A stretch of DNA of 64,000 nt from Thiomonas sp. X19 (lineage in GTDB: Bacteria; Pseudomonadota; Gammaproteobacteria; Burkholderiales; Burkholderiaceae_C), in NCBI RefSeq assembly GCF_900089495.1, contig NZ_LT605203.1, positions 3,073,546 through 3,137,545 of the forward strand, read 5' to 3'. Made by a program: the position numbers and the translations under genes. The notes below the pieces were generated by a model. The model was not told the DNA's origin. It saw nothing but the letters and a program-made list of their open reading frames with translations, and searched no databases. Positions within the stretch are counted from its first letter, which is position 1. Each line of letters opens with the position of its first letter. Below, one piece after another: positions 8,417 to 28,418 of this stretch.

Positions 8417-8432
8417 TTTCCCTAGCGCCGTA
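8417..8432 (+). promoter_or_regulatory. Element-specific box copy 1 (TTTCC-N7-CGTA)
   Basis: TTTCC at 8417-8421, seven bases, CGTA at 8429-8432; 41 bases before the start at 8474. A CCCCGC/GCGGGG stem (8444-8459) lies between box and gene. Confidence 0.7.
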
Positions 8433-8473
8433 CCCCCTCCACACCCCGCCCCCGCGGGGCTGGGGAACAGGTC

Positions 8474-8938
8474 ATGGGATACGCACAACGCCACAGCAAT
8501 CGCCGCCAACTATTCAGTTTTCTGATCCTGGGCGCAGTGGCGATCTACGCGTTGCTAATCCTCGCCACAAACAGCCACTTCCCAGCCCAGCAGCGGGCTT
8601 TGGCAGAGATTCTGGCCCAGGCCAAGGTCTACGCCCTGTTCCCACAGCCCTGGCACCAGGACGGCCTGTACACGGCCACCCTGGGCGGCGTAACAGCCTC
8701 TGCAAGCCAAGTCCAGATCAATGCAGCCCTCTCCCAAATCAAAGCCATCCCCCTAGCCACGATCTGGACAAACACCAGCTTTATCCCTGCGCGAATCCTA
8801 GAACTCTGGCTCTACATATTTCCACCCGCCAGTATCTGCATGTCGGCCATAGTTTTATGGGCCTGGCACAAGTGGCGCACCAGGCAGCGTGCAAATGAAA
8901 AGCACGTGCGGGGCGCAAAAATCGAAGATTGGAAATAA
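8474..8938 (+). CDS. Membrane protein related to the N-terminal region of TraD-type coupling proteins
   Basis: A 154-residue protein with a membrane segment at about residues 13-32 (FSFLILGAVAIYALLILA), a loop of roughly 70 residues presumably on the periplasmic side, a second membrane segment at about 112-130 and a basic end with HVRGAKIEDWK. Two membrane helices, a loop and an RGA tail are the layout of the N-terminus of VirD4/TraD coupling proteins, whose ATPase is encoded two genes downstream. It is also a paralogue of the protein at 15324. It has box copy 1 upstream. Function as part of a split coupling protein is inferred. Confidence 0.7.
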   Translation: MGYAQRHSNRRQLFSFLILGAVAIYALLILATNSHFPAQQRALAEILAQAKVYALFPQPWHQDGLYTATLGGVTASASQVQINAALSQIKAIPLATIWTNTSFIPARILELWLYIFPPASICMSAIVLWAWHKWRTRQRANEKHVRGAKIEDWK

Positions 8939-8955
8939 CCAAACCGGAGTCAATC

Positions 8956-9288
8956 ATGATTAAAAGCTATTTTCTTTGGGCCGCGGCGTATGCGCGTGCA
9001 AACCGCAACCATCAAGGCGTGATTCCGATCTGGATGGAGGTCTATCTTATTTTCCCTGCCATTATTGTCGGTTTCGCCGTCGTTTGCGGCGCACTGGTCT
9101 TCAATATGTTTGAGCAAAGTTTTGTGCAAGGGGTCGCGGCGCTTATTCTCGTCTCATTTTTTGCCGGGCTCATCGTTCTGTTCCTCAAAATCAAACGTAA
9201 ATTGCACAGTTGGCTGAACAAAACGCCGGACAGCGGCCCAGGGGAGCACATCCGCGGCGCGCAAATCCACGATCTACGCGACGAATAA
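8956..9288 (+). CDS. Split coupling protein, membrane subunit (TraD/VirD4 N-terminal part)
   Basis: The start at 8956 is preferred over 8929 because it is preceded by CCGGAG at good distance and does not overlap the previous gene. About 110 residues: two membrane helices (about residues 25-50 and 57-78) and a basic stretch, ending EHIRGAQIHDLRDE. In ordinary coupling proteins this RGA segment follows the second helix and leads straight into the ATPase domain. Here the chain stops, and after 10 bases with its own ribosome-binding site (GGAG) a gene for the soluble ATPase begins. I infer that the two products form one coupling protein. Confidence 0.7.
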   Translation: MIKSYFLWAAAYARANRNHQGVIPIWMEVYLIFPAIIVGFAVVCGALVFNMFEQSFVQGVAALILVSFFAGLIVLFLKIKRKLHSWLNKTPDSGPGEHIRGAQIHDLRDE

Positions 9289-9298
9289 GGAGAAAATC

Positions 9299-10555
9299 AT
9301 GTTTTTCAACAAGAAGCCCAAGCACGCGCCAGCCGCTCAGTCTGTTGCGCCTGAGGAAACCAATATTCTGATCGGCAAGGCGCTTATTCCAGCCATTGCT
9401 GAGCCCACACATTTTCTGGTTTGTGGCTCTATCGGCAGCGGCAAATCGTTGATTATCAACCGCCAGATCAAAGCGGTCCGCGCGCGCAATCAGCCCGCCG
9501 TGATCATCGACCCGGGCGGTGAGGTGATGTCTTCTCTGGCCAAACCTGGCGATATTATCCTAAACCCACTGGATAAAAGGGCGCGACAGTGGGATATTTT
9601 CGGCGAAATCGATGGGCCGTGGGACTATGACCGCATGGCCAAGGTTTTGTGCCCCAGTGGCGCTAGTGCATCGTCAGCAGAGGAATGGCGTGGTTATGCC
9701 CAAGGCTTGCTGAGCGCGATTATCGCGCGTTTGCATGGACAAAATGAGAGCATCAAAGAGCTTGTGCGCTTGGCAACAACGGCCGATGCACAGGAACTGG
9801 GTAATTTTGTCGCTGGCAAACCAGCCGCGGCACTGTGTGCAAAAGGCGCGGATAAAATGCTGGCATCCGTGCGCGGCATTTTGGGCTCTGTTTTAGCCCC
9901 CTGGCAGTATATGCCATCGGATCGGGAGAAATTCACGTTCAGGAAATGGCTGGAGAGCCCTCAAGGCATTATCTGGCTACCAGCGCGCGCCGATCATAGG
10001 AGCCTTTTGGCGCCCATGTTTTCTGCAATGATCGGTAGTTTCGTGACATCGCTGTTATCTCTGCCGCCGAAACTCGACCGCCGTGTCTGGGTTTTTTTGG
10101 ATGAAATGCCGAGCTTGGGTCGGATTGAAGGCATTCAAAGCGCTTTGGCCGAAGGCCGCAAATTCGGCCTTTGCGGCGTCATCGGCTTGCAGTCAATCTC
10201 ACAAATCAGGAGCATTTATGGCAAGGAGGAAACACAATCGCTTTTGTCCGTGATGCGCAATTGGGTCGTTCTCAATCAATCCGACCCAGATTCAGCAAAA
10301 TACTTTTCCGACGCACTGGGCCAGCAAGAGATCATCAGGCCGCAGCACTCTCAAAATGACAGTGGCGTGAGCACATCGTATCAATACACGACACAGCCGG
10401 TTATTCTGCCGTCGCAATTAACCGGACTGCCCACGCGTCAAGCGTTTTTGCGCATTTCAGGAGAACCCACGATCAAACACATTTCAATCCCAATCATCCC
10501 CATGCAGCAGATTTGCTCGCCGTTCGAACGCGGCGATATTTCCATCGCTGGGTAA
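9299..10555 (+). CDS. traD: Type IV coupling protein ATPase (TraD/VirD4 family), lacking membrane helices
   Basis: A 418-residue ATPase. Residues 20-45 (IGKALIP..HFLVCGSIGSGKS) give the usual lead-in and Walker A; Walker B is WVFLDEMPSL at about residue 265; FGLCGVIGLQSISQI follows, as in coupling proteins. These enzymes hand the relaxase-DNA complex to a secretion channel. The two N-terminal membrane helices normally present are absent and seem to be encoded by the gene immediately upstream. Length and motifs are otherwise complete. Confidence 0.88.
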   Translation: MFFNKKPKHAPAAQSVAPEETNILIGKALIPAIAEPTHFLVCGSIGSGKSLIINRQIKAVRARNQPAVIIDPGGEVMSSLAKPGDIILNPLDKRARQWDIFGEIDGPWDYDRMAKVLCPSGASASSAEEWRGYAQGLLSAIIARLHGQNESIKELVRLATTADAQELGNFVAGKPAAALCAKGADKMLASVRGILGSVLAPWQYMPSDREKFTFRKWLESPQGIIWLPARADHRSLLAPMFSAMIGSFVTSLLSLPPKLDRRVWVFLDEMPSLGRIEGIQSALAEGRKFGLCGVIGLQSISQIRSIYGKEETQSLLSVMRNWVVLNQSDPDSAKYFSDALGQQEIIRPQHSQNDSGVSTSYQYTTQPVILPSQLTGLPTRQAFLRISGEPTIKHISIPIIPMQQICSPFERGDISIAG

Positions 10556-10608
10556 CAAGGAACGGCATGCAAATGCCGCCACGCTGAATCCACCAACCGG
10601 AGTAGACG

Positions 10609-11280
10609 ATGAACAGTCCAGTGCAAACCCCCGAAGAAAATAACCAACCCGCGAAAATTCAATTCCAACAGGAACTGGACGCCAAACACGCCCAGCGGGA
10701 TCAACACGAGGCCGAGCTTTTGAAAGGTTCCATCGATTATCAAACCAAGGGCCTGAGCCAGACGACTGCCGATCTGGCAGAATATGGCGCGTCGATCTGG
10801 CAAGGCGATCATCTCAAAGCAGACGGCACTTGGGGGTCTCGTGCCGTCGTTTTGGAAATCAATGGGCAGTATATCCCAGGCTTTGAAACCGCCGATCACA
10901 AAATTGATTTGCTGACCGACGGCATCACCAGCGACCCTGAAAAGGCGCGCGAAGTCGCCGAATCCTACCATTATCACGCCACCTATTCCGGCCCGGAACT
11001 CACCCCGCCCGAATATCTGCCAAGCGTGGATAAACAGCCAATGGAGTTTATCCCTCTGGAAGTCCTGCATGAAATGGCGACCGAAAATACCCTGCCGGAA
11101 ACGGATCATGCGCGGGATGCTGAGGCTGAATGGCTGAATGACGGAGGGGATATGGAGCCGCTCCCTGCGCGCGAATTCGTGCGCGATTATGGTCCGACCG
11201 ACTTACAGGATTTCAACCGCGAGGGCAAGAATCAGACTGAACCAGAACTCGATGATGGCGGGGGTTATGACATCGATTAA
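10609..11280 (+). CDS. Hypothetical acidic protein
   Basis: A 223-residue, strongly acidic protein without membrane segments or a recognised family. It starts with Q/E-rich sequence, likely helical, and has many proline-containing acidic stretches after residue 125. It lies 53 bases after the coupling ATPase gene and is closed by a clear terminator at 11306, so it is probably the last gene of that transcript. Association with the coupling or relaxosome proteins is suggested only by position. Confidence 0.65.
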   Translation: MNSPVQTPEENNQPAKIQFQQELDAKHAQRDQHEAELLKGSIDYQTKGLSQTTADLAEYGASIWQGDHLKADGTWGSRAVVLEINGQYIPGFETADHKIDLLTDGITSDPEKAREVAESYHYHATYSGPELTPPEYLPSVDKQPMEFIPLEVLHEMATENTLPETDHARDAEAEWLNDGGDMEPLPAREFVRDYGPTDLQDFNREGKNQTEPELDDGGGYDID

Positions 11281-11305
11281 ACCCGCCGCTTGATAACCCA
11301 GGCAC

Positions 11306-11328
11306 GGCCCGCTGAACGCGGGCCTTTT
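11306..11328 (+). terminator. Rho-independent terminator
   Basis: GGCCCGC (11306-11312) pairs with GCGGGCC (11318-11324) over a five-base loop and is followed by TTTT. It closes the transcript ending with the gene at 10609-11280. Confidence 0.75.
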
Positions 11329-11331
11329 CAT

Positions 11332-11367
11332 GCCATGAACGTGCGTGCTAGAGGGCCGCTTCATGGC
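11332..11367. repeat. Inverted repeat GCCATGAA/TTCATGGC
   Basis: Perfect 8-base arms at 11332-11339 and 11360-11367 around a 20-base centre. Part of the dyad-rich region upstream of the relaxosome genes. Confidence 0.4.
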
Positions 11368-11376
11368 ATTACCCCA

Positions 11377-11400
11377 TGGATAACCAGCACACGTTATCCA
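11377..11400. promoter_or_regulatory. Inverted pair of DnaA-box-like sequences
   Basis: TGGATAAC (11377-11384) and GTTATCCA (11393-11400) are perfect arms around eight bases. The right arm reads TTATCCACC, one base from the DnaA consensus TTATCCACA; the left arm is the same core reversed. This would suit a replication origin or an operator. Confidence 0.45.
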
Positions 11401-11670: not shown

Positions 11671-11686
11671 TTTCCAGGCCAACGTA
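11671..11686 (+). promoter_or_regulatory. Element-specific box copy 2
   Basis: GATA then TTTCC at 11671-11675, seven bases, CGTA at 11683-11686; 25 bases before the start at 11712. Confidence 0.7.
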
Positions 11687-11711
11687 TCTCCAGCATAGGA
11701 GAAGCCCGACC

Positions 11712-12083
11712 ATGACTAAATCTCAAATCGTTCATGCACGACTGACAGACGTCGAAGCAGCCGCTTTCGCTGCCCAGCCTGGTGCGACCGCCAGCGAGAA
11801 ACTGCGCGGCCTTATCAATAATACCCAGCGTCAATCCGCGATGATTGCCGCATTGCTGGCGCAATCTCAACAGATGAGCAAAACCCTTGATAATCTCGCC
11901 ACGGCCAAGGAAGGCCAAGGCGGCGGCGTTTCAGAGGCCGAGTTTCGCGCCGCGCTCTGGAAAATCGCAAACCTCATTAGCGCTGTGATGGACGGCATTC
12001 AAAGCCCGCAGAAAATCACCAGCGAAAACTACCGGCAAACCGCGTATCAGTTTGGCCAACAAATCCGTACCGGAGAATATTGA
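11712..12083 (+). CDS. Probable relaxosome accessory protein (RHH-like)
   Basis: Start at 11712 chosen for its AGGAGA ribosome-binding site; the frame is open further upstream. A 123-residue protein whose first 40 residues (SQIVHARLTDVEAAAF then GATASEKLRGLIN) fit a ribbon-helix-helix pattern: a short strand, then two helices. A long amphipathic helical part follows. Its stop is one base before the relaxase ATG. Small RHH proteins in this position (TrwA type) bind oriT and help MobF relaxases. No direct sequence match to TrwA was recognised, so this is structure and context based. Confidence 0.6.
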   Translation: MTKSQIVHARLTDVEAAAFAAQPGATASEKLRGLINNTQRQSAMIAALLAQSQQMSKTLDNLATAKEGQGGGVSEAEFRAALWKIANLISAVMDGIQSPQKITSENYRQTAYQFGQQIRTGEY

Positions 12084-12084
12084 A

Positions 12085-14760
12085 ATGCTCTCAATCGCCG
12101 TCAAAACCGCCGCAGGAGCGGTGTCGTACTATATTCACATGCAGGGCGAGGCTTCGAATAAAGAGGCCAGCACGGAGGATTATTATGCCGCTGAGGGCGT
12201 CGGTTACTGGGCTGGCGCCGCGTGCGAACAACTCGGGGTTTCATGCCAGGTCACGCCCGAGCAATTCAGCGCGCTCTGTAATGGCTTCGATGCAAACGGC
12301 CAACCTCTTGTCCAAAATGCCGGTGATTCAGACCGTCGTGCTGGCTGGGATTGCACATTTTCAGCGCCTAAATCCGTTTCTCTGGTTTGGGCCAATGCCG
12401 ATAAGGATACGCGCGAGGCGATTGAAAAGGCCCACGCACAGTCCGTTGAAAAAGGACTTGAATTTATCCAGGACAAAGCCTCGTATTCCCGCCGTGGCAA
12501 AGAAGGCCATGCAGAGGAAGAGGCTGATATTGCCGTCGCGGTATTCCAGCATGGAACCTCGCGCGAGCGTGATCCGCAATTGCATTCCCATGCGTTTGTC
12601 GTTAATGCCGCAGTGCGCGAAGATGGTACGGTCGGAACGCTGCAAGGTCGGCATTTTTTCGATTGGAAAATGGCCGCTGGCGCTTTATACCGGGCTGAGC
12701 TTGCCAGTGAAATGCAGAAACTTGGTTATGCCGTGGAACGCGATGGTTCCAGTTTCCGCTTGACCGATGTTTCAACCGATGCCGAGCGCGAGTTCAGCAA
12801 GCGCCGCGTACAAATCGAGGAGGCATTAAAAGAGGCTGGAATGACTGGCGCAGCGGCAAGCTCAGTCGCCGCATTATCCACCCGCCAGGCCAAGGGCGAT
12901 ATCGATATTGAAGCACTACGCCAGCAATGGCAGGATGCAGGCAAGGAGTTCTGTTTGGATAACGTGCCAATGCACGACAGAATCACGCCGCTCGATAAAC
13001 CAGCCTTGGCCGATATTCTCCGCGAAGCGCACACGAATAAATCGGTTTCGCGAGAGCAGGATATTTACACCGCAGCATTTCAGGCCGCGCAAGGCGTGGG
13101 TGATGCAGAACAGGCCCACAACCTAGCCCGCGAATCATTCGACGAAGCTGTGAATATTGGTGCAGGCAAAGACGGCAAGACGCGTTATTCCACACAAGAG
13201 ATTATCGCCGCCGAGCGTTCGATTATCGATAACGCCGCGAAGCTCGCCGTCGCTGAGCCCCACCAAGCCATTCCATTGCGTCCTGCAACTGAGGGCGGCT
13301 TCCAGTTATCCCCTGAGCAGCAAGCCGCGCGTGAAAATCTCGCGGGTGCTGGTGGCATTAAGGTTTTGGTCGGTGATGCTGGCACGGGCAAATCGACCTT
13401 GCTTGCAGAAGTCCGCCAGGATTATGAGCGGGCCGGGTATCAGGTCATCGGCTGTGCGCCCAGTGGCAAGGCCGCTGCTGGATTATCGGAATCGGCAGGC
13501 ATTAAAGCTAAAACGCTGGACCGCCTGTTACTGGATATTCAGCGCGGCGAAACCGCCCTGCACGCAAAATCGCTGATCGTGATCGACGAAGCGGGAATGG
13601 TCGATTCCCGCAAAATGGCCGCGATGATGACCGCAGCGGAATCGGCAGATGCCAAGATTATCGCGGTTGGAGATTGGAAGCAGTTGCAGCCAGTGGGTAG
13701 CGGCGCGACATTCGCAGCCCTGGCAGAGGCCCATGGTGATCCAGCCAGGTTGCAAGAGATTTTTCGCCAGCGCGACGAATGGCACAAAGGCGCTGTGTCC
13801 AATATGTCCAAGGGTGATGCAGCGGCAGCTATGTCTGGATATATGGACCGTGGTTTGGTTTCCATTGAAAACACGCACAAGGCCGCGGTGGCGGCTGTGG
13901 CAGAAAAGCTGATCGAAGCACGCAAGGATGTCGGGGCGGATCAAGTCATCGGCCTGGCCAGCACAAATGCTGCTGTGAACGACATCAACAAAGCAGTCCG
14001 GGAGCGGCTGATTGAGGCAGGAGAGATTACCGACGTGCGGAGAATTGAAACCGCATCCAAACAACTGGATGTCGGAATCGGTGACCGCCTTTTGGTCACA
14101 AAAAACGACAGCGAAACCGGGCTGAGAAACGGCGATATTCTCACAGTGAAGGGTATCGATGAAACCGGCCATGCATGGGTTCATGTGGACCGTGGCAGCC
14201 AGGAATTCACTGCGGATTTATCTAGCCTTGAGCTAAACCATGGTTTCGCCATTACCACGCACAAAGCGCAAGGCGCGACCGTTGACAAGGCGATTATTTT
14301 GGGCAGTGAACACACCTCGAGAGAGGCGGCCTACGTGCAGGCAAGCCGCGCTAGGGATGAAACCCAGTGGGTTTTCAGCGCGGCGAAGGTGGAGAAACTG
14401 GCGCAAAGCATTGGAAACGACACTCCGCCAACCGGGAAGATGCGTGATTTTGCCGAGAGTTTGGAGCAAAAGCGGCTAGAAGCGGGGCTGCCGCCGAGTT
14501 TGGCTGAAGATCACCGCGCGAGTTTTGTGGAGTGCCGGGCCTGGCTGAATGCCAACGCTTATCTTATCCAGGGCCACGAACATCCCTCCGGTTTGGACCC
14601 GCGCCTGGCCGACCTCAAGCAGGTCATCGAGGCGATGGGCCGCAGCCAGCAAAAGGAAAGCACCCTGGATTACCCCGACGCTGCCAAACACATGGACAAG
14701 GGCGCCGACCACGAGCCTGAGCGCGACATGAGTAAGGATGGCGCCTGCTTGGGCGAGTAA
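12085..14760 (+). CDS. trwC: MobF-family relaxase/helicase (TrwC/TraI type)
   Basis: Start at 12085 (MLSIAVKTAAGAVSYY), the family's usual N-terminus, with CGGAGAA upstream; 891 residues. The relaxase domain has tyrosine pairs at 15/16 and 33/34 and the three-histidine metal site (H156, H167, H169 in HGTSRERDPQLHSH). The C-terminal part is a superfamily 1 helicase: Walker A GDAGTGKST at about 430, Walker B VIDEAGMVD at about 498, and a late ITTHKAQGAT motif at about 720. The protein nicks oriT, stays bound to the 5' end and unwinds the transferred strand. All key residues are present, so it looks functional. Confidence 0.93.
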   Translation: MLSIAVKTAAGAVSYYIHMQGEASNKEASTEDYYAAEGVGYWAGAACEQLGVSCQVTPEQFSALCNGFDANGQPLVQNAGDSDRRAGWDCTFSAPKSVSLVWANADKDTREAIEKAHAQSVEKGLEFIQDKASYSRRGKEGHAEEEADIAVAVFQHGTSRERDPQLHSHAFVVNAAVREDGTVGTLQGRHFFDWKMAAGALYRAELASEMQKLGYAVERDGSSFRLTDVSTDAEREFSKRRVQIEEALKEAGMTGAAASSVAALSTRQAKGDIDIEALRQQWQDAGKEFCLDNVPMHDRITPLDKPALADILREAHTNKSVSREQDIYTAAFQAAQGVGDAEQAHNLARESFDEAVNIGAGKDGKTRYSTQEIIAAERSIIDNAAKLAVAEPHQAIPLRPATEGGFQLSPEQQAARENLAGAGGIKVLVGDAGTGKSTLLAEVRQDYERAGYQVIGCAPSGKAAAGLSESAGIKAKTLDRLLLDIQRGETALHAKSLIVIDEAGMVDSRKMAAMMTAAESADAKIIAVGDWKQLQPVGSGATFAALAEAHGDPARLQEIFRQRDEWHKGAVSNMSKGDAAAAMSGYMDRGLVSIENTHKAAVAAVAEKLIEARKDVGADQVIGLASTNAAVNDINKAVRERLIEAGEITDVRRIETASKQLDVGIGDRLLVTKNDSETGLRNGDILTVKGIDETGHAWVHVDRGSQEFTADLSSLELNHGFAITTHKAQGATVDKAIILGSEHTSREAAYVQASRARDETQWVFSAAKVEKLAQSIGNDTPPTGKMRDFAESLEQKRLEAGLPPSLAEDHRASFVECRAWLNANAYLIQGHEHPSGLDPRLADLKQVIEAMGRSQQKESTLDYPDAAKHMDKGADHEPERDMSKDGACLGE

Positions 14761-14931: not shown

Positions 14932-14947
14932 TTTCCATGGCTCAGTA
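14932..14947 (+). promoter_or_regulatory. Element-specific box copy 3 (AGTA variant)
   Basis: GATA, TTTCC at 14932-14936, seven bases, AGTA at 14944-14947; 47 bases before the start at 14995. Confidence 0.6.
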
Positions 14948-15714: not shown

Positions 15715-15730
15715 TTTCCAGGCGCACGTA
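15715..15730 (+). promoter_or_regulatory. Element-specific box copy 4
   Basis: Begins in the bases just after the stop codon of the upstream gene: TTTCC 15715-15719, seven bases, CGTA 15727-15730; 29 bases before the start at 15760. Confidence 0.7.
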
Positions 15731-16640: not shown

Positions 16641-16656
16641 TTTCCAGGGCTGCGTA
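16641..16656 (+). promoter_or_regulatory. Element-specific box copy 5
   Basis: GATA, TTTCC 16641-16645, seven bases, CGTA 16653-16656, placed just after a terminator and 31 bases before the start at 16688. The position between a terminator and a gene fits a promoter. Confidence 0.72.
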
Positions 16657-17702: not shown

Positions 17703-17718
17703 TTTCCAGGCGTCTGTA
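17703..17718 (+). promoter_or_regulatory. Element-specific box copy 6 (TGTA variant)
   Basis: TTTCC 17703-17707, seven bases, TGTA 17715-17718. Unlike most copies it lies about 190 bases before the next start (17908), in a region that shows no other gene. Confidence 0.6.
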
Positions 17719-20353: not shown

Positions 20354-20369
20354 TTTCCAGCGGCGCGTA
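20354..20369 (+). promoter_or_regulatory. Element-specific box copy 7 with downstream stem
   Basis: GATA, TTTCC 20354-20358, seven bases, CGTA 20366-20369. Eight bases later AGGGC (20378-20382) can pair with a downstream GCCC. The next start is 20418. Confidence 0.72.
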
Positions 20370-20417
20370 GCAGTTCAAGGGCAGCAAGCGCGGCCCGCAA
20401 CCCACGGAGATTTTCAA

Positions 20418-20863: not shown

Positions 20864-20879
20864 TTTCCTCTCCAACGTA
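20864..20879 (+). promoter_or_regulatory. Element-specific box copy 8 with downstream stem
   Basis: Starts within the bases of the preceding stop codon: TTTCC 20864-20868, seven bases, CGTA 20876-20879. Eight bases later CGGG pairs with CCCG around GCCACAAGA. Gene start at 20933. Confidence 0.72.
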
Positions 20880-20932
20880 CCAATGCACGGGCCACAAGAC
20901 CCGCACCAATCCTCAATCTCAAGGAGCAGCAA

Positions 20933-21121: not shown

Positions 21122-21285
21122 CAAACAAAAACCACCGGGACAAAAAGGCTGCGCCTGCGCTGCCTGGCGGTTTCTGGCCTGGCCTGATGCCACCGACCAC
21201 ATCGAAGCGAGCCAAAGCCGTAGCGGCGGCGTTCAGGGCTGGAAAGATTGACGAGGCCCGGCGCCTCGCCAAGGAGAAATCATGA
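21118..21285 (+). CDS. Very small basic protein (55 residues)
   Basis: GTG start overlapping the previous stop (GTGA) and an ATGA overlap with the next start. Basic N-terminus (TNKNHRDKK), a PGGFWPGLMPP segment and a helical end (AFRAGKIDEARRLAKEKS). The double coupling supports translation. Function unknown. Confidence 0.45.
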   Translation: MTNKNHRDKKAAPALPGGFWPGLMPPTTSKRAKAVAAAFRAGKIDEARRLAKEKS

Positions 21286-21725
21286 AGACCAACGTGAGTG
21301 TGATTCAAAAGTTGCTTTCACAAGCGCACGAAGCTGAGCAACGGCAAGCCGCCCTGCTGGCCCAAAAAAAGGAGCAGTACAGGCATGCGCTGAAGCTGCT
21401 GAACGATCTGCAGGCTCACGTCATCCACTATCAACAGCGCCAGCACGCCATGGGCTGCAGCGTGGCATGGGGTGAGGCGCAAGCCATGCGCGATTTCATT
21501 GACACGCTGAAAACGACTGCCAGCATGCAGCGCACCGAGGTCAACCGCCTGCAATCCATGCTCGACGAGCAGACCAAGGCGTGGACCGCCACACGCCAGC
21601 GCGTGAAGGCGCTGGAGCAATTGGTATCCAAGCGCCGCGCCACAGCGTTCGCAACGCAGCGCCGGCGCGAGCAGGCAGAGCTGGATGACTGGCTGCTGCA
21701 CCAGCCATCGCAGCGCGCAGCCTGA
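21282..21725 (+). CDS. FliJ-like coiled-coil protein
   Basis: A 147-residue, almost entirely helical protein, equal in length to E. coli FliJ. Besides the coiled coil it keeps FliJ-like spacing: LKLLNDLQAHVIHY, AQAMRDFIDTLKTTASMQ, then EVNRLQSMLDEQTKAW, RQRVKALEQLVSKR, and a QAELDDWLL end. FliJ connects the flagellar export ATPase (FliI) with the export gate. No flagellar gene cluster is present, so this copy is an orphan on a mobile element. Another coiled-coil protein of similar shape, including YscO types, is the alternative. Confidence 0.55.
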   Translation: MKTNVSVIQKLLSQAHEAEQRQAALLAQKKEQYRHALKLLNDLQAHVIHYQQRQHAMGCSVAWGEAQAMRDFIDTLKTTASMQRTEVNRLQSMLDEQTKAWTATRQRVKALEQLVSKRRATAFATQRRREQAELDDWLLHQPSQRAA

Positions 21726-21761
21726 ACCACCAACCACCCAAACCAAACCCAGGAGAACATC

Positions 21762-22094
21762 ATGAAAGAAGACCAGATGATTCAAACCATCATCCAGCTC
21801 GCAAAAGTGGCGCGTCATGAGGGACTGCGCGGCGTGTTGCCGTTGACCGAGATGATGCCCGACGCCTTCAGCCGCCGGGGGGTGAAGCTGTTAGGGCTGG
21901 GCGCCGAGCCCGACGATATCCGCTCCCTGCTGGGGGTGGAGGCCGAGCGCGACGCCCGGATCAAAAGGCTCGTGATCGAGGGCCTGGCCGGGATCGCCGA
22001 CGGCGAGAACCCCGAAGTTCTGGAGGCGCGGCTGCGTCTGATCGCCGGGCTGGAGAAGGCCTGCAACCAGCTCGCGCTCGCTCAAAAAACCTGA
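21762..22094 (+). CDS. MotA cytoplasmic-loop-like protein without membrane segments
   Basis: A 110-residue soluble protein. Residues 9-60 (LAKVARHEGLRGVL, then AFSRRGVKLLGLGAEPDDI and a LLGVEAERD ending) follow the pattern of the cytoplasmic domain of MotA stator proteins (ARREGLLAL..., F..G..L...G.D...I...LE.E). The four membrane helices of MotA are missing. It starts after CAGGAGAACATC and follows the FliJ-like gene by 36 bases. Either it is a detached stator domain or chance resemblance of a short helical protein. Confidence 0.45.
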   Translation: MKEDQMIQTIIQLAKVARHEGLRGVLPLTEMMPDAFSRRGVKLLGLGAEPDDIRSLLGVEAERDARIKRLVIEGLAGIADGENPEVLEARLRLIAGLEKACNQLALAQKT

Positions 22095-22110: not shown

Positions 22111-23178
22111 ATGAATGAAGCAAAACCGGACTTCCGGCAAGAGTTCACCGACAAGGTCATCGATGCGATCGAAAGCGGCAAGCCGCTCCCGTGGGAGCGG
22201 CCCTGGACCGCCGGAATCAGCCCACAAAACGCGATTTCAGGCGAGGAATACCAGGGCATGAATCGGCTGATTCTGGCCATCGAAATGCTTGAAAAGGGCT
22301 ACGCCGACCCGCGTTTCGCGACCTTCAAACAGGCGCAAGACTTGGGCGGCTCAGTGGCCAAAGGCGAGCGGGGCGTGCTGGCAGAGCGCTGGGAATACGC
22401 CGAGTTTTGGCAGCGGCCCGAGGTGCAGGTGAAAGAGGGCGAAACGCGGGTGCAGGTTCGCGCTGTGGACGGCCCGAGCGCCACCTTGGACACGGGCCGC
22501 GAGGTTCCCAAACACACTTTGCAGGCCGAACACAAGGGCAAAATGTACCCATGGGCGCAGGCCGCGCAGGAGTTGAACCTGGCTTACAGCAAGGTCTTCA
22601 CCCTCTTCAACGTCGCGCAGTGCAATGGCTTGAAACTTGAGCCGCTGCCAGCGCTGACGAACAAGATCGAACCGGAAGATCGGTTCCAATCCATCAAGGA
22701 CGCGATGGCGCGCGACGGCCTGAAATTCGAGACCGGGAGCGCGGCGTTTTACCTGCACAGCACCGACAGCGTGGTCACGCCCCCTGCCAACGCCTTCAAA
22801 GATGTGGGGGGCTACCAGGCGACCGTTCTGCACGAAATCGGGCACGCGACCGGCGCAGAGCACCGGCTGAGCCGCGACGGCATCACAGGCGGCCATGAGT
22901 TCGGCAGTGAGGGCTATGCCAAGGAAGAATTGCGCGCCGAATTTTTCAGTATTTTCGCGGCGATGGAGACGGGCATCACCAGATTGCGTGATGAGCAGCA
23001 TGCTGCCTATCTCCAAATCTGGATTGGTGCGGCGAGTGACGATAAGGACGAGTTTTTCAAAGCGGCGGACGACGCAGCCAAGGCCGTTGATTACGTCATC
23101 GGCAAAGAGCACGAAATGCTGCAGGAGCGCGAGGCTGCACAGGCTGAGCCTGGGCGCGAATTCGACCTTGGTCTATAG
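22111..23178 (+). CDS. ardC: ArdC-like anti-restriction protein with zincin metallopeptidase motif
   Basis: A 355-residue protein. The N-terminal half (DFRQEFTDKVIDAIESG, LPWERPW, GMNRLIL, FATFKQAQDLGG) matches the ArdC N-terminal single-stranded-DNA-binding domain. The C-terminal half carries the zinc peptidase motif HEIGHATG (about residue 246), EHRLSR and a downstream YAKEELRAEF with a third ligand glutamate. ArdC proteins protect incoming plasmid DNA against restriction. Motifs are complete. It sits 16 bases after the MotA-like gene and is followed by box copy 9. Confidence 0.88.
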   Translation: MNEAKPDFRQEFTDKVIDAIESGKPLPWERPWTAGISPQNAISGEEYQGMNRLILAIEMLEKGYADPRFATFKQAQDLGGSVAKGERGVLAERWEYAEFWQRPEVQVKEGETRVQVRAVDGPSATLDTGREVPKHTLQAEHKGKMYPWAQAAQELNLAYSKVFTLFNVAQCNGLKLEPLPALTNKIEPEDRFQSIKDAMARDGLKFETGSAAFYLHSTDSVVTPPANAFKDVGGYQATVLHEIGHATGAEHRLSRDGITGGHEFGSEGYAKEELRAEFFSIFAAMETGITRLRDEQHAAYLQIWIGAASDDKDEFFKAADDAAKAVDYVIGKEHEMLQEREAAQAEPGREFDLGL

Positions 23179-23187: not shown

Positions 23188-23203
23188 TTTCCAGGGCCGC
23201 GTA
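23188..23203 (+). promoter_or_regulatory. Element-specific box copy 9 with 8-bp stem
   Basis: GATA, TTTCC 23188-23192, seven bases, CGTA 23200-23203. Eight bases later GGGGCGGC pairs with GCCGTCCC (one G-T pair) over AATC. Start at 23259. Confidence 0.75.
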
Positions 23204-23258
23204 CCCATGCAGGGGCGGCAATCGCCGTCCCGCCCAACCTTCGCATCGAAAGGACATC

Positions 23259-23552: not shown

Positions 23553-23584
23553 CTTGCCCGCTGGGCATGCACACGGCCGCTGAT

Positions 23585-23600
23585 TTTCCAAGCCCCCGTA
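23585..23600 (+). promoter_or_regulatory. Element-specific box copy 10 with 6-bp stem
   Basis: TTTCC 23585-23589, seven bases, CGTA 23597-23600, just after a terminator. Eight bases later CGGGCC (23609-23614) pairs perfectly with GGCCCG over ATGA. Start at 23644. Confidence 0.75.
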
Positions 23601-23643
23601 CCAAAGCACGGGCCATGAGGCCCGGTCAACTGGAGCATCGCAA

Positions 23644-24150: not shown

Positions 24151-24341
24151 TTGCCGTTCTGCATCTGGTGTACACAGCGGCCAACGGGCCGCTGGTGCGG
24201 CAGACCGAGCGGTACAACACGCTGGCGGACGTGCCCACAGTGTGGGCGCGCCACATCACCTCGCAGCAGCACGCCCAGGTGATTTACACCGAAGGCATGG
24301 CGATCATCTACACCCCGCGCACGCATGAGGTTCTTTACTAA
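24147..24341 (+). CDS. Small hypothetical protein (64 residues)
   Basis: GTG start in a GTGA overlap with the lipoprotein stop. The sequence is soluble and beta-rich by appearance (IAVLHLVYT, HAQVIYTEGMAIIYTP). The stop codon TAA is the start of box copy 11. No family recognised. Confidence 0.5.
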   Translation: MIAVLHLVYTAANGPLVRQTERYNTLADVPTVWARHITSQQHAQVIYTEGMAIIYTPRTHEVLY

Positions 24342-24357
24342 TTTCCGGCGCTGCGTA
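24342..24357 (+). promoter_or_regulatory. Element-specific box copy 11 with downstream stem
   Basis: Fused to the stop codon upstream: TTTCC 24342-24346, seven bases, CGTA 24354-24357. Eight bases later AGGGC (24366-24370) pairs with a downstream GCCCT. Start at 24403. Confidence 0.72.
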
Positions 24358-24402
24358 ACAGGTCAAGGGCGGCACAGCGCGGCCCTGCAAACAGGAAACA
24401 GC

Positions 24403-24552
24403 ATGAACACCAAAAATAAACTTTATCGCAACGCCGTGTTGCTCAAGACCAAGCCGAAGTCACGCCCAGTGCCGGAGCTTGCGCCCCGGCGCGACCCGCT
24501 GATCTGGGCGATGTTTGGCCCGAACTACAAACCCACAGGAGCGAAATCATGA
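24403..24552 (+). CDS. Very small basic protein (49 residues)
   Basis: Start at 24403 after ACAGGAAACAGC. Basic first half (MNTKNKLYRNAVLLKTKPKS), then a proline- and tryptophan-containing end. It overlaps the next start by ATGA. Function unknown. Confidence 0.5.
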   Translation: MNTKNKLYRNAVLLKTKPKSRPVPELAPRRDPLIWAMFGPNYKPTGAKS

Positions 24553-24896
24553 GCCAACAAATCAATGTCGATGCCTGCCTGCAGGCGCTGTCTGGCTGGA
24601 GCCTGGCCGATCTTTGGACGGTCCTGGCACAAGCCGAACTCTGGGAACTCGGCGCGATGCTCGCCGACCACGCCGACGGCGTGCCGACAGCGGCGCACCA
24701 GTATCCAGATGCCGAACAAAGGCTCGGTTTCTGGGCCGAAAGCTGCGGCCTGGACCCGAGCACCGGGGAGCGGGCGGCTGTTGAGCCCGACCCGGCGACG
24801 GGCGAGACCGAGGCCTTTTTTCTGGCGAAGGACGGTGCACGGATGATCGTGCGCGAACTGCAAACCCCTGTCCGGCGCGAAGACAAGAAAGATTGA
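24549..24896 (+). CDS. Hypothetical acidic protein
   Basis: A 115-residue soluble acidic protein rich in A, L, E and D, starting in an ATGA overlap with the previous small gene and preceded by ACAGGAGCGAAATC. No family recognised. A terminator follows 42 bases after the stop. Confidence 0.6.
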   Translation: MSQQINVDACLQALSGWSLADLWTVLAQAELWELGAMLADHADGVPTAAHQYPDAEQRLGFWAESCGLDPSTGERAAVEPDPATGETEAFFLAKDGARMIVRELQTPVRREDKKD

Positions 24897-24938
24897 TGGC
24901 ATCGGCATGTTTTAAGCAGGCCACTACAGCCACTTCCC

Positions 24939-24961
24939 AGCCCGCCCCGCGCGGGCTTTTT
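24939..24961 (+). terminator. Rho-independent terminator
   Basis: AGCCCGC (24939-24945) pairs with GCGGGCT (24951-24957) and runs into TTTTT. The following ~220 bases up to 25180 show no convincing gene or box copy. Confidence 0.75.
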
Positions 24962-25180
24962 CATGCGCGCTGCGCACGCATGCCGGGGCTCGTTCCAGCC
25001 CCTGCCAATCTGCCATCCGAAGCCGCCCCGACCTGCGGCGCCTTGGCGCTCAGGCATCTGCCACGCCAGCCCTGCGCTCTGTCATGTCCGCTGCACGCGC
25101 CATGCCTGCGGCACCGGCTTGCAGGCTCGCCCCATGAGGCGGCTCCGAACAGCAGATTTCAACCAGCAGGAGAAGATGAC

Positions 25181-25465
25181 ATGAACGATCCCCTACACCC
25201 CACAAGCAACGGCGAGGCTCACCAAGCAGCAGATGTGCAAATCCCGGAAGCCACCCGGCGCAAGCACTACCTGAGCGGCGAGTTCTTCATCACTCCTCAA
25301 GCCCTCGAAGCGCACGACATCGACGAGGTTCTGCGCTGGTTCAACCTGCCACATGAGCCCGTGACCGTCGGCGATGTGCGCGACATCGGACACGGCCTGA
25401 AAGCGTATTTCGGATACGACGACAGTAAGCCGATGCGCAAGGCTCTCTTTGTCCGCATCTACTGA
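25181..25465 (+). CDS. Hypothetical protein
   Basis: Start at 25181 after CAGCAGGAGAAGATGAC; 94 residues, soluble, slightly acidic, with YLSGEFFITPQALEAHDIDE in the middle. The frame extends upstream without a credible start. No family recognised. The next gene follows after 30 bases with its own AGGAG. Confidence 0.55.
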   Translation: MNDPLHPTSNGEAHQAADVQIPEATRRKHYLSGEFFITPQALEAHDIDEVLRWFNLPHEPVTVGDVRDIGHGLKAYFGYDDSKPMRKALFVRIY

Positions 25466-25495
25466 TCCACACGCACACCATCAGGAGCACCAGCT

Positions 25496-25951
25496 ATGAC
25501 CACTGCAACCCCAACCGGCACCACGGCCGCCGACTTGTTCGGCGAGCCCATCCACATCTACACCCGCGCCCAGGCCATCGAGGACGGCATGCTGATCGAC
25601 GTCAGCGGCACGGCAAGAGAGGCTGGCATCGTCTGGCCTGTGGCCATCACCAGCGCCGTATGGAGCGACGCCTGCGCCTGGACCGACGCCGACGACAAGC
25701 GCAAGGGTGGCGGGGCGTGCTGGCAGAGCGAGAGCGGCAGGCTTTGGGATGCCGTGTGGATGGCATCGCGCGCGATCCGCGCAGGACTGCGGCGCGGGCA
25801 CGATGGCCGCGACCCGATCTTGTTTCAAGTCCTGCGCATTCCCCGCGAAGGCCGGGGCGTTCGTCCCCGCCTGGCCACGCTCAAGCTGCAGGTCGGCCCT
25901 GGCGACGCAGGCGAGCCGGTCATCACGATCATGCTTCCGGGCGAGGATTGA
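25496..25951 (+). CDS. DUF6573-like hypothetical protein
   Basis: A 151-residue protein whose first half (LFGEPIHIYTRAQAIEDG, DVSGTAREAG, WPVAITSAVW) and the later GRLWDAVWMA segment match a small family common on plasmids and integrative elements (DUF6573, recalled from family knowledge). Role unknown. It starts after CAGGAGCACCAGCT. The BrnT/BrnA pair follows after 30 AT-rich bases. Confidence 0.65.
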   Translation: MTTATPTGTTAADLFGEPIHIYTRAQAIEDGMLIDVSGTAREAGIVWPVAITSAVWSDACAWTDADDKRKGGGACWQSESGRLWDAVWMASRAIRAGLRRGHDGRDPILFQVLRIPREGRGVRPRLATLKLQVGPGDAGEPVITIMLPGED

Positions 25952-25981
25952 AAGCACGCAAATTTGTACTAACATATTTAT

Positions 25982-26275
25982 ATGCTCACCAAATTCGAAT
26001 GGGACTCCGCCAAGGCGCTGGCCAACCTGCGCAAGCATGGGGTGAGCTTCGAGACGGCCATGCGCGTGTTTGCCGATCCGCTCGCATCGTCCAATCAGGA
26101 TCGCATCGAAGGCGGTGAGCCAAGGTGGATCACCATCGGCGTGGTGGAGGGCTATGTGTTGCTCGTGGTGGCGCACACCGTGCGCAACGAGGACGATGGC
26201 ACCGAGATCATCCGCATCATCTCGGCCCGGCGCGCCGACCCGAAGGAAAGGAAAGACTATGAGCAAAATGGTTAA
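25982..26275 (+). CDS. brnT: BrnT-family toxin (ribonuclease)
   Basis: A 97-residue protein with the BrnT signature: FEWDSAKALANLRKHGVSFE at residues 5-24, a FADPLA segment, and the late IIRIISARRADPKERKDYE. BrnT toxins adopt a RelE-like fold and cleave RNA, stopping translation. The 30-base gap upstream is AT-rich (TTTGTACTAACATATTTATATG) and probably holds the promoter and the BrnA operator. It overlaps brnA by 17 bases. Residues of the family look intact. Confidence 0.88.
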   Translation: MLTKFEWDSAKALANLRKHGVSFETAMRVFADPLASSNQDRIEGGEPRWITIGVVEGYVLLVVAHTVRNEDDGTEIIRIISARRADPKERKDYEQNG

Positions 26276-26609
26276 ACATGCCGTGGACCTGGCCAAGCTG
26301 CCGCCCCTGACCGCCAGGCAGCGCAAGGAACTGGAGGCCCTGGCGGCGAAGCCTGACAGCGGTATCGATGTCAGCGACATCCCGGCGCTGGGGGATGCGT
26401 TCTGGAAGAACGCGGTGCGCAACCCGTTCTACAAGCCCACCAAGACGCCGACCACGGTGCGCGTGGACTCGGACGTGCTGCTGTGGCTCAAATCCAAGGG
26501 GCGGGGCTACCAGACCAAGATCAACGCCATCCTGCGCGAGGCGATGCTGCGGGAGGTGGCGCCAGCCAAGCCTGCGCCGCGCGGCGAGCGGCACCGCAAG
26601 GCGGCTTGA
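26259..26609 (+). CDS. brnA: BrnA-family antitoxin
   Basis: Start at 26259 with GGAAAGGAAAG upstream and inside the end of brnT; 116 residues. The C-terminal part (TTVRVDSDVLLWLKSKGRG, then TKINAILREAM) is the ribbon-helix-helix DNA-binding module of BrnA antitoxins, and the middle (FWKNAVRNPFYKP) is also typical. BrnA neutralises BrnT and represses the operon. A toxin-antitoxin pair would stabilise the element. Confidence 0.88.
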   Translation: MSKMVKHAVDLAKLPPLTARQRKELEALAAKPDSGIDVSDIPALGDAFWKNAVRNPFYKPTKTPTTVRVDSDVLLWLKSKGRGYQTKINAILREAMLREVAPAKPAPRGERHRKAA

Positions 26610-26702
26610 AGAACTAACCCAGCTTTGCCACAGGAGCGGTCTGTCGCTGCGCCGCGTTCCCACAAGGTTTTCCGGAGATCCTTGAAAAAAGACTCGGGCC
26701 AA

Positions 26703-26719
26703 GTGGGCCTTTGGCCCAC
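26703..26719 (+). repeat. Perfect 7-bp hairpin
   Basis: GTGGGCC (26703-26709), TTT, GGCCCAC (26713-26719). Lies after brnA in the 250-base gap; it may act as a terminator although no T-run follows. Confidence 0.45.
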
Positions 26720-26736
26720 CCACTTCAGCCCAAAAG

Positions 26737-26788
26737 AATTGCGGTGTTTTCCAATATATAAATTTCTTTATTGGAATCCACCGCAATT
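26737..26788. repeat. 52-bp two-level inverted repeat
   Basis: Outer arms AATTGCGGTG (26737-26746) and CACCGCAATT (26779-26788) are perfect; then four unpaired bases on each side; then inner arms CCAATA (26751-26756) and TATTGG (26769-26774) around a 12-base AT-rich centre. The right outer arm runs into box copy 12. Confidence 0.55.
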
Positions 26789-26802
26789 TCCTCACGTGCG
26801 TA
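26787..26802 (+). promoter_or_regulatory. Element-specific box copy 12 with 10-bp stem
   Basis: TTTCC 26787-26791, seven bases, CGTA 26799-26802. CAGGGCATCG (26809-26818) pairs perfectly with CGATGCCCTG (26826-26835). Start at 26863. Confidence 0.75.
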
Positions 26803-26862
26803 TCACGCCAGGGCATCGACATTCGCGATGCCCTGTCAACCCGAAACCTCAGGAGCATCACC

Positions 26863-27279
26863 TTGAAAGCAACGACCAAACGACTTCTGGCCCGTGCCGG
26901 CATCCAGGCGGATGGCAGTGAGCGAGCCTTGAGCGCCATCATCACTGCGGCGGTCAAGCAGAAATACCAACAATACACTTCCCGCACTCTGATCGAGGCG
27001 ATCAACCTGGACAATCGTGCCTGGTGCGAAGCTCACCGCTACACGCACAGCCGCACCCAGCCGCTGGAATCGGTGCGGCTCGAACTTCTGAAGCGCGTTG
27101 CTCGTGCGCACGTTGGCTCCCGCCAAGTCATGCAGAAGCTCCAGCGCGACATCGCGGACGGCGAGTTTGTGAGGAAGTTTGGCGAGGACATGGCCGAGGC
27201 CGTCGACTTCCTGCAAAGCCCCGCCAAGTTCCGTGCCGAGTTCCGCCGGATGCGCGCCGAGATGGTCAAGAGCGTATAA
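26863..27279 (+). CDS. Hypothetical basic helical protein
   Basis: TTG start at 26863, chosen because CTCAGGAGCATCACC precedes it; 138 residues, rich in R, K and E and without membrane segments. It contains KRLLARAGIQADGSERALS at the start and a LKRVARAHVGSRQVMQKLQR block in the middle. No family recognised. The 17-base gap to the next gene suggests joint expression from box copy 12. Confidence 0.55.
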   Translation: MKATTKRLLARAGIQADGSERALSAIITAAVKQKYQQYTSRTLIEAINLDNRAWCEAHRYTHSRTQPLESVRLELLKRVARAHVGSRQVMQKLQRDIADGEFVRKFGEDMAEAVDFLQSPAKFRAEFRRMRAEMVKSV

Positions 27280-27295
27280 GCAAGGGGCGGAGATC

Positions 27296-27658
27296 ATGGC
27301 CAAGAAACTCACGGCCGAACAGAAAGCAGCGCGCCGCATGGAGAAGCACGGCAACGAGTACATCGCGGCCGTTGCCGCAGCCGCGGCGCGTGGGCTTGCC
27401 CCGCTTACTGGCACCGTGCCGCAGTGCGTCTGGGCGGAGCCCATCCGCGACCGCGCCATGACCGCAGACCCCACGCTTGTTGACGCCGTACGCGGCCGTG
27501 AAGGGTGCGCCACCGCGCAGTTCTGGATCGTGAACAGGTATAAGGTCGGGGAGCCACTGGCTGAAGCTGTGAGGACTGCTGGCAACGAGCCTGAAATGGC
27601 GCCGAATGCACGAGCCAAAGAATCAGAGCCAAGCGCCCGGCAGCTCGACATGTTCTGA
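27296..27658 (+). CDS. Hypothetical protein
   Basis: Start at 27296 after AGGGGCGGAGATC; 120 residues, basic and helical at the start (KKLTAEQKAARRMEKHGNE), then alanine-rich, with a QLDMF C-terminus. QxxxF-type ends such as QLDMF resemble beta-clamp-binding motifs (QLSLF type), so an interaction with the replication sliding clamp is a possibility. No family recognised. The downstream gene is on the other strand. Confidence 0.55.
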   Translation: MAKKLTAEQKAARRMEKHGNEYIAAVAAAAARGLAPLTGTVPQCVWAEPIRDRAMTADPTLVDAVRGREGCATAQFWIVNRYKVGEPLAEAVRTAGNEPEMAPNARAKESEPSARQLDMF

Positions 27659-27783
27659 CCACCGTCAGGCCGCTGCCTGCGCGTGTCCACGTGGACCGCA
27701 ACCGCCCTGGGCTGCACCAGGTCAAGCGCGCGGCCGCGTTCAAGCGCGGCCTGGATGGATTGCTCAGAAGTCGCCATGCGCGA

Positions 27784-28398
27784 TTATCCCAGCTTCGCCA
27801 CCGCGCCCAAGTACCCAGCATGGTGCCGCAGCGCGTAGTCCTGGCGCGTGAAGCCACTGAGTTGGACGGCCAGCACCGCGAGTACATCGCCAATTACAGA
27901 CATCACCGTCGTTGATGTCGTGGGCGCCAGGCCCAGCGGGCAGACCTCGGCAGGGTCTCCCGTCCACAGCACCAGGTCAGAACACGCGGCAAGCTCCGAG
28001 TCGCTCTTGCCCGTGATCGTGACAATCCGCACATCGGGATGCAACTGCCTGGCCAGATGCACAAGCTCAACGACCTCCCGCGTTTTGCCCGAGTTCGAGA
28101 TAAGCAGCAGGCAGTCATGGATGCCGAGCACGCCCAGGTCGCCGTGCTGGGCCTCCAGAGGGTGCAGGAAGATCGATGGCACGCCGACCGAGCACAGCGT
28201 GGTCGCGATCTTCGCCCCGATGCCGCCCGCTTTGCCGACGCCGGAGACAACCACTTTGCCCCCGGCGCGGGCCGAAGCAAGAAAACACTGGACAGCAGGC
28301 TCGAAAGGATTGTCCAGGGGGATGTTTTGGATGACCGCGGCTTCGGCCGCGAGGATGGATTGGATTGCGTTTTGCATGATCGGATTATCAGGGGTCAT
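27784..28398 (-). CDS. SIS-domain phosphosugar isomerase, KdsD-like without CBS domains
   Basis: Start at 28398 (MTPDNPIMQ); 204 residues. It matches the SIS half of arabinose-5-phosphate isomerases: GKVVVSGVGKAGGIGAKIA, HPLEAQHGDLG, LLISNSGKTREV, VCPLGLAPTTSTT and DYALRHHAGYLGA. KdsD makes the precursor of Kdo for lipopolysaccharide and normally has about 330 residues with two CBS domains; those are absent here. Single-domain forms exist in other bacteria. It is one of only two genes of the element on the minus strand and diverges from the AlpA-like gene. Confidence 0.8.
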   Translation of the reverse strand: MTPDNPIMQNAIQSILAAEAAVIQNIPLDNPFEPAVQCFLASARAGGKVVVSGVGKAGGIGAKIATTLCSVGVPSIFLHPLEAQHGDLGVLGIHDCLLLISNSGKTREVVELVHLARQLHPDVRIVTITGKSDSELAACSDLVLWTGDPAEVCPLGLAPTTSTTVMSVIGDVLAVLAVQLSGFTRQDYALRHHAGYLGAVAKLG

Positions 28399-28402
28399 CA
28401 CT

Positions 28403-28418
28403 TTTCCGCCGGTGTGTA
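28403..28418 (+). promoter_or_regulatory. Element-specific box copy 13 (TGTA variant)
   Basis: TTTCC 28403-28407, seven bases, TGTA 28415-28418, between the divergent SIS gene and the AlpA-like gene, 24 bases before its start at 28443. Confidence 0.6.

Follow-up and report, generated by a model that had tools for sequence, protein, structure and literature searches.

Short boxes in co-resident mobilisable elements of Thiomonas sp. X19 come in element-specific versions and are candidate core promoters

Sets of genes under a shared short sequence have been described in several mobile elements and viruses, in the sections of the reports cited here. In the transfer-competence regulon of ICEclc (BisDC, InrR), a 27-bp motif is common to eight of the nine subpopulation promoters, which are co-expressed (PMC9286271). 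AcaCD, known from IncA/C plasmids and SGI1, acts at intergenic sites before excision and mobilisation genes, and AcaCD and SetCD are not exchangeable (PMC4207636). The stoperators of Cluster A mycobacteriophages are asymmetric, mostly in one orientation and present in genome-specific versions (PMC6550527), the repeated SAS/ESAS sequences of Cluster K mycobacteriophages lie mostly in one direction just before many genes of different families (PMC3203893), and halovirus HF2 carries repeated intergenic sequences with promoter activity (PMC8707807). Here we analyzed a stretch of 64,000 nucleotides (nt) of Thiomonas sp. X19 (NZ_LT605203.1; hereafter the window), whose genome comprises 4.67 Mb in three contigs, and in which a mobilisable element, e1, carries a short repeated box before many of its genes. 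The element was compared with its second copy, e2, and with e3, e4, e5 and e7 of the same genome (contig C3), as well as with g4 (genome G004) and g27 (genome G027), elements from other species of the genus. From the sequence and placement of the boxes we propose, with a probability of about 0.55, that each is a core promoter in one piece, recognized by an element-specific factor.

An earlier note on this DNA had described 13 copies of TTTCC-N7-(C/T/A)GTA, all intergenic, always on the plus strand and confined to the element. Our pattern search recovered all 13 at the same starts, on the plus strand and with the seven-base spacer (Table 1). The same pattern also matches at 8819 (plus) and 29835 (minus), and a weight matrix adds 10539, in which a G precedes the GTA. 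The type-A set of the window thus holds 16 boxes (the 13 plus 8819, 10539 and 29835), each facing the gene that it precedes. We count 29835 as a member because the corresponding position in e2 and e7 is likewise occupied by a box of the respective type. Plus orientation and intergenic position hold for the 13 copies first described; 29835 departs from the former, so that "always facing the gene preceded" is the better wording, and 8819 and 10539 depart from the latter. Confinement to one element does not stand, since e2 carries the box too, and elsewhere in the genome the pattern is at background.

Within the 25.6 kb taken as the span of e1, 14 plus-strand matches were observed, against a mean of 0.07 and a maximum of 2 in 300 Markov shuffles, and TTTCC-N7-CGTA ranked first in blind gapped-word counting (10 observed, 0.04 expected). 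The whole genome holds 45 forward and 22 reverse matches to the pattern of the earlier note, 27 and 2 of them inside e1 and e2; outside these elements, 18 forward and 20 reverse matches remain, compared with 18 and 19 for a reversed-pattern control. A chance origin of the boxes is ruled out by the shuffles, the word counts and this genome control. The earlier note had named a similar density of the box elsewhere in the genome as grounds for refutation, and this control did not refute its interpretation; with type A at control level outside e1 and e2, a host-wide regulon is unsupported.

The second copy, e2, is a mosaic. Its aligned blocks between 8414 and 28724 are 81 to 92% identical to e1, one 57-base stretch of the alignment is 96% identical, whereas the integrase and the majority of replication genes are different. 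Fifteen boxes are kept in e2 (13 matching the pattern of the earlier note, the counterpart of 10539, and an integrase box). All 13 alignable counterparts retain TTTCC and GTA, and the spacer has drifted, with columns 10 and 11 agreeing in 7 and 8 of 13 pairs.

Conservation extends beyond the two half-sites. The type-A profile, built from 14 sites (10539 and 29835 excluded; TTTCC and GTA invariant as the pattern required them), gives the consensus A/T A/T TTTCC A NN S S NN C GTA N C NNNN CA, with C17 in 13/14 sites, C22 in 12/14 and A23 in 11/14, and with little conserved upstream of the A/T pair. The CA stands at columns 22-23 in 11 of the 15 plus-strand sites and one base later in two (8417 and 11671). 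Genome-wide, this extended pattern has 19 forward matches, no reverse match and no match to the reversed control, and 18 of the 19 lie in e1 and e2; the sole match outside, C3:40452, is antisense inside an open reading frame (ORF) and was set aside. The downstream C and CA, the hairpin described below and the other box types are features beyond those of the earlier note.

Our analysis identified six related boxed elements and one remnant in this single genome, two of the elements being neighbours, and the boxes fall into three types. Counts refer to eight elements (the six of the own genome, g4 and g27; 176 kb). Type A (TTTCC-N8-GTA) belongs to e1 and e2. Element e3 holds relatives of e1 genes and no type-A box, and has seven copies of TTTCG-N9-GAAT before its genes; type B (TTTCGC-N8-GAAT) characterizes five elements, namely e3, e4, e5 and, in two of the 27 other genus genomes searched, g4 and g27 (28 genus genomes in all, with family samples of 299 to 399 genomes). 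Type C (TTTCC-N7-(C/T)CTAT), counted solely in the eight elements and in VirB4 neighbourhoods, occurs in e7 alone, with 12 copies on the gene strand and one before the integrase. The 79 gene-strand boxes are distributed as 15 and 14 of type A, 7, 8, 7, 8 and 8 of type B, and 12 of type C; three further own-type boxes face the integrase genes of e1, e2 and e7, for a total of 82.

Related genes carry the box type of the element that hosts them. Members of the P0002 family are preceded by type A in e1 and e2, by type B in e3, e4, g4, e5 and g27, and by type C in e7. A gapless alignment pairs the 20864 leader with one of e7 in which type C takes the same position; identity is 31/40 upstream and 28/42 downstream of the box and just 5/13 over box columns 5-17. 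In the integrase leaders, a type-A box in e1 and a type-C box in e7 occupy the same position, and the terminator before box 16641 is the one before the type-B box of its e3 relative. The relaxase is TrwC-like in e1, e2, e3, e5 and g27, that of e4 is a MobC-type replication-relaxation protein with relatives in g4 and e7, and coupling protein and replication genes also differ between elements.

Outside these elements such boxes are rare. A strict type-A pattern was found 10 times in the own genome and once each in two others among 399 family genomes, both times in ORFs; a strict type-B pattern was found nine times in the own genome and once each in six others among 299. Five viral contigs have one exact match each to the strict type-A pattern, which a rough estimate made without a control attributes to chance, and two type-B patterns had no match in the viral contigs. 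The coupling protein of e1 has two loci in the genome contigs, one of them a contig of G021, and none in the viral contigs; protein 10609 was found in the own genome alone among 399 order genomes, and proteins 10609, P0002 and 5588 had no plasmid match. Two near-equal sequences 7.2 kb apart (G000:C3:2233773 and 2240941) consist of TTTCC-N7-CGTA followed by TTACGCAGTTGCGCAACTACGT, and they look like the ends of another element rather than boxes of this kind.

All three types have a common layout of box, CA or another pyrimidine-purine step, usually a hairpin, ribosome site and gene. Measured from the second half-site, the step falls ten bases past the G in types A and B and past the C in type C, where it is weaker: the type-B profile (38 sites) has Y23 in 34/38 and R24 in 36/38, type C has Y22 in 8/12 and R23 in 10/12, and the first half-site is displaced by one base from one type to another. 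This geometry would be the behaviour expected of a -10-like element with an upstream element. The hairpin usually begins right after the CA, where the mean folding energy of 30-base segments peaks (-9.65 at 13 sites, against a background of -5.6); over the 79 sites, the hairpin zone averages -9.6 (A), -11.6 (B) and -9.8 (C), compared with -6.1 for background. The leader, counted from the step to a start codon that has a ribosome site, has a median length of 40 nt (A) and 43.5 nt (B), and is at most 75 nt long in 60 of 67 A and B sites, compared with 584 of 2000 random places. A scan of the window with Rfam returned a tRNA alone at gathering score, and no described leader family was matched.

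No known promoter signature accompanies the boxes, in line with the earlier note, which had found them unlike -35/-10 and -24/-12 promoters. Scored against TTGACA and TATAAT at a spacing of 16-18, the sequence upstream has a mean best sigma-70 score of 6.59 at the 79 sites and 6.55 at 800 control places; a score of at least 9 of 12 is reached by none of the 79 and by 1.25% of the controls. Sigma-54 promoters have GG at -24 and GC at -12 with ten bases between, and this pair was not seen in the column profiles of types A, B and C. CGTA resembles the -10 element of some extracytoplasmic function (ECF) sigma factors such as SigW; here, however, no -35 element was seen, and TTTCC lies only about one helical turn upstream.

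Boxed genes of the window encode membrane-type proteins, the relaxase and a relaxosome accessory protein, a YadA-like adhesin, FliJ-like and ArdC proteins, a lipoprotein, the integrase and a predicted excision factor. No box precedes the genes for replication, partition and methylases or a toxin-antitoxin pair that, judged by eye, is BrnT/BrnA-like. By inference from gene content, the boxed set is what a transfer-state regulon would look like.

The suggestion of the earlier note that the box is an element-wide promoter or operator recognized by one factor provides the best fit to the sequence data, because the boxes point towards their genes, keep a near-constant short distance to the start codon, have a hairpin at a fixed position and are separated by type between elements. 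Under our proposal of a core promoter, transcription would start at the CA, about 23 bases after the first T of the box, and each messenger would begin with the hairpin, which may protect it. Each box type would have one matching factor, encoded by the element, which would switch on excision, mobilisation and surface-protein genes together, the regulon corresponding to the transfer state. More tentatively, and with the odds in our view somewhat against it, the boxes may represent a new class of core promoter, with two half-sites near -23 and -10, separated by one helical turn, a pyrimidine-purine start, a built-in 5' hairpin and element-encoded initiation factors of at least three mutually exclusive specificities per cell; any captured gene would then have to be re-tagged with the box type of its new element.

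The search for such a factor yielded candidates only. Scans of the submitted proteins against Pfam, NCBIfam and PDB sequences returned no sigma factor or recognized master activator. The 261-amino acid protein encoded at 5588 is kept in both type-A elements while the adjacent replication genes differ. AlpA/HTH_17-like proteins occur in e1, e2, e3, e4, e5, g4 and e7 (weakly recognized in e3 and e5), and the HTH_17 protein, that of 28443 in e1, was set aside as the factor, as it resembles RdfS and does not follow the box types. Other helix-turn-helix proteins present are replication-type proteins in e3 and e5, and a MobC-type protein in e4. An ATPase of e5 passes the Sigma54_activat cut-off, but its match to ClpA/ClpB is far stronger. 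The neighbourhoods of VirB4 genes (54 to 100 kb at four loci of the own genome) contain no cluster of any type and one type-A match in total. A host factor is unlikely, because three types coexist in one genome and these neighbourhoods of potential helpers have no clusters.

Several observations weigh against a core promoter with a private factor. The factor was not found, and no protein family in the ORFs compared was seen to track the box types; the 5588 protein has no match in 274 class genomes (its own excepted), plasmids or phages, its AlphaFold model alone is poor (predicted local distance difference test, pLDDT, 41), and the AlpA/HTH_17-like proteins of e3 and e4, both type-B elements, are mutually dissimilar (E 28). 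The CA is absent at 8819 and 10539, two of the 15 plus-strand sites, both of which overlap coding sequence, and folding is weak after several boxes, such as 15715 and 11671. In the stems of 38 pairs of related leaders, 257 cells are unchanged, pairing is kept through a one-sided change in 13 and a two-sided change in 11, and 56 are broken and 26 gapped; compared in the other direction, the figures are 258, 17, 7, 62 and 12. Type C is based on one element, and e3, e4 and e5 have no type-B box before the integrase. The 176 kb hold five off-type matches, two of type A in e5 and, in g27, two of type A and one of type C; four lie on the opposite strand, and a match of e5 is nearly identical in sequence to one of g27. 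Outside the clusters of the own genome, the type-B pattern has 10 forward and 8 reverse matches, compared with 2 and 0 for its reversed control; two of these matches sit in the remnant element, and most genus genomes have a few scattered ones. Finally, a P0002-family locus at C3:2371665 has no box cluster, and boxes are absent from an element whose coupling protein is 58% identical, though the contig ends at the relaxase. As a separate observation, positions 34240 and 41494 of e5 and 16762 of g27 carry, on the minus strand, a repeated TTTCCGNATTTCTGTAT that fits the type-A pattern without its layout.

The boxes could instead be operators, bound by an element-specific activator or repressor that, like AcaCD or the stoperator repressors of phages, works through an ordinary promoter and host RNA polymerase. 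We regard this as unlikely, even though asymmetric, mostly one-directional, multi-copy sites in per-element versions resemble stoperators as these are described in the cited part of PMC6550527, and though AcaCD sites are reported before xis and mobilisation genes of islands (PMC4207636), much as the boxes here precede a predicted excision factor and the integrase. Against operators, no sigma-70 -35/-10 is conserved or enriched near the boxes, and 11671 leaves no space for a promoter or -10 downstream, because its ribosome site starts about ten bases past the box. Nor do the surroundings of VirB4 loci have box clusters. If transcription began further upstream, box and hairpin might act in the messenger, as a leader bound by an element-encoded RNA-binding or antitermination protein. 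The fixed place of the hairpin after the box in three types and some two-sided compensating changes agree with this, but no promoter signal was found upstream, box 16641 begins only 12 bases past the T-run of a terminator, and several boxes begin at the previous stop codon, which together make an action in the messenger distinctly improbable.

Two further explanations draw on the mobility of the elements. Frpo-like single-strand promoters, used on single-stranded entry into the recipient, would account for hairpins, for the nearly single orientation and for an ArdC antirestriction gene downstream of a box, and establishment genes with shared leaders are described for pLS20 in the cited part of PMC8708921. 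In the Frpo class, however, the promoter lies inside the stem, whereas the box zone here is not more structured than background (folding energies of -4.35, -5.91 and -5.87 for the three types, against -6.06), the integrase box sits on the opposite strand, and the hairpin is placed downstream of where transcription is predicted to start; we give this explanation very little weight. Still less plausible are recombination or cassette borders that move gene modules between elements. Modules are indeed common to elements at very different identities, and box 26787 stands at the edge of a segment absent from e2; exchange at boxes would, however, mix the types, which is hardly seen, and the most recently shared stretch (e2/e7, 97-100%) is unboxed. 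A core promoter with an element-specific factor is our preferred reading, ahead of operators and, in third place, of an action in the messenger.

Table 1. Boxes and other features of the window (unprefixed positions) and boxed elements of the Thiomonas sp. X19 genome (G000, contig C3).
Feature	Position	Strand	Remarks
Type-A box	8417..8432	+	next start 8474 (154-amino acid membrane-type protein); kept in e2
Type-A box, doubtful	8819..8834	+	inside ORF 8474-8938; hairpin after
Type-A box, GGTA	10539..10554	+	overlaps last codons of coupling-protein gene; next start 10609; AA replaces CA; hairpin downstream
Type-A box	11671..11686	+	before relaxosome accessory gene (start 11712)
Type-A box	14932..14947	+	next start 14995
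Type-A box	15715..15730	+	directly after stop codon; next start 15760
Type-A box	16641..16656	+	gene 16688 (P0002 family); predicted transcript start 16664
Type-A box	17703..17718	+	before YadA-like adhesin gene (17908); long leader
Type-A box	20354..20369	+	small membrane-type gene next
Predicted hairpin after box 20354	20379..20396	+	
Type-A box	20864..20879	+	directly after stop codon; downstream genes include FliJ-like, ArdC
Predicted hairpin after box 20864	20888..20903	+	
Type-A box	23188..23203	+	next start 23259
Predicted hairpin after box 23188	23209..23233	+	
Type-A box	23585..23600	+	before glycine-zipper lipoprotein gene 23644
Predicted hairpin after box 23585	23609..23624	+	
Type-A box	24342..24357	+	directly after stop codon; small gene, then 24549
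Type-A box	26787..26802	+	gene 26863; missing from e2
Predicted hairpin after box 26787	26809..26835	+	
Type-A box	28403..28418	+	before predicted excision factor gene 28443
Type-A box	29820..29835	-	faces integrase gene; 56 bases before likely start 29779
261-amino acid protein	5588..6373	+	no box; 90% identical in e2; unproven factor candidate
RepA-like and RepC-like replication genes	6384..8304	+	no box
Coupling protein, TrwB-type	9299..10555	+	
Relaxase, TrwC-type with helicase	12052..14760	+	
Antirestriction protein, ArdC-type	22111..23178	+	
HTH_17 protein, GRPRK tail	28443..28715	+	predicted excision factor; nearest solved relative RdfS (recombination directionality factor), E 0.004
Tyrosine integrase	28712..29779	-	mechanical ORF to 30586; likely start 29779
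Boxed elements	G000:C3 3056-3068, 3082-3103, 3530-3552, 3679-3690, 3720-3737, 3782-3799 kb		
e2 boxes	C3:3530646 to 3551652		type A
e3	C3:3056447-3068020	-	seven type-B boxes; just before the window
e4	C3:3678621-3689716		type B
e5	C3:3719692-3736889		type B
Remnant element	C3:4332-4333 kb		two type-B sites

Some further features of these elements were observed. A short inverted repeat (26732-26788) directly precedes box 26787; in e2 this repeat is present in both orientations, at the edge of the segment missing there. In e7, positions 24319-26457, which include DUF6573 and the following genes, are 97-100% identical to e2 and partly duplicated in e7, which suggests a recent exchange of unboxed DNA. 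The window stretch 24893-25180, before gene 25181, has weak similarity to stretches of e3 and e4 though the surrounding genes differ, and is possibly a shared non-coding element. Within 21282-22094, the FliJ-like protein is encoded beside a short relative of flagellar MotA, in a mobilisable element, and 27784-28467 (minus) holds a partial gene for a KpsF/KdsD-like sugar-phosphate isomerase that is also present in e2 and e3.

If our reading is correct, co-resident elements would keep their expression apart by private promoter languages, and a gene that moves between them would have its promoter converted. The boxes are likely to be private start switches that would let each element turn on its transfer genes together. 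They would provide a set of orthogonal promoters, a clear test of co-change between transcription factors and their sites, and a motif by which the transfer regulons of poorly known mobilisable elements could be located. No account of such boxes appeared in the titles and abstract openings of the literature searched, with subscription papers and preprints outside its scope.

Compared with the described systems, the boxes combine familiar features in a different arrangement. ICEclc likewise has a common motif at many promoters of one element; there, however, the regulators are known, the motif is single and, in the cited section, it lies 152 bp from the mapped start at the inrR promoter, whereas the boxes here would occupy the core-promoter position and exist in three versions in co-resident elements. 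Families of bisDC and inrR were not found among the Pfam-scanned proteins of the window, although Pfam may miss them and some small ORFs were unscanned. The boxes share with AcaCD sites, as reported, an intergenic position before excision and mobilisation genes of mobilisable islands. AcaCD is, however, described as a helper-encoded class 2 activator, whereas the helper neighbourhoods of the own genome have no box clusters, although a helper might reside outside this genome, and the column profile has no conserved -10 downstream, unlike the layout of a class 2 activator. As with stoperators, the boxes are asymmetric, mostly in one orientation and of versions that follow the element; stoperators are reported as repressor sites, whereas the boxes, accompanied by a hairpin, lie ahead of gene units at a distance like that of a start. 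SAS/ESAS sequences are described immediately before the gene start, whereas the box lies upstream of the ribosome site and varies by element, and the HF2 repeats are reported as AT-rich motifs of an archaeal virus, differing in both sequence and host. Regulons with a shared motif are thus already known; several private versions side by side appear to be new.

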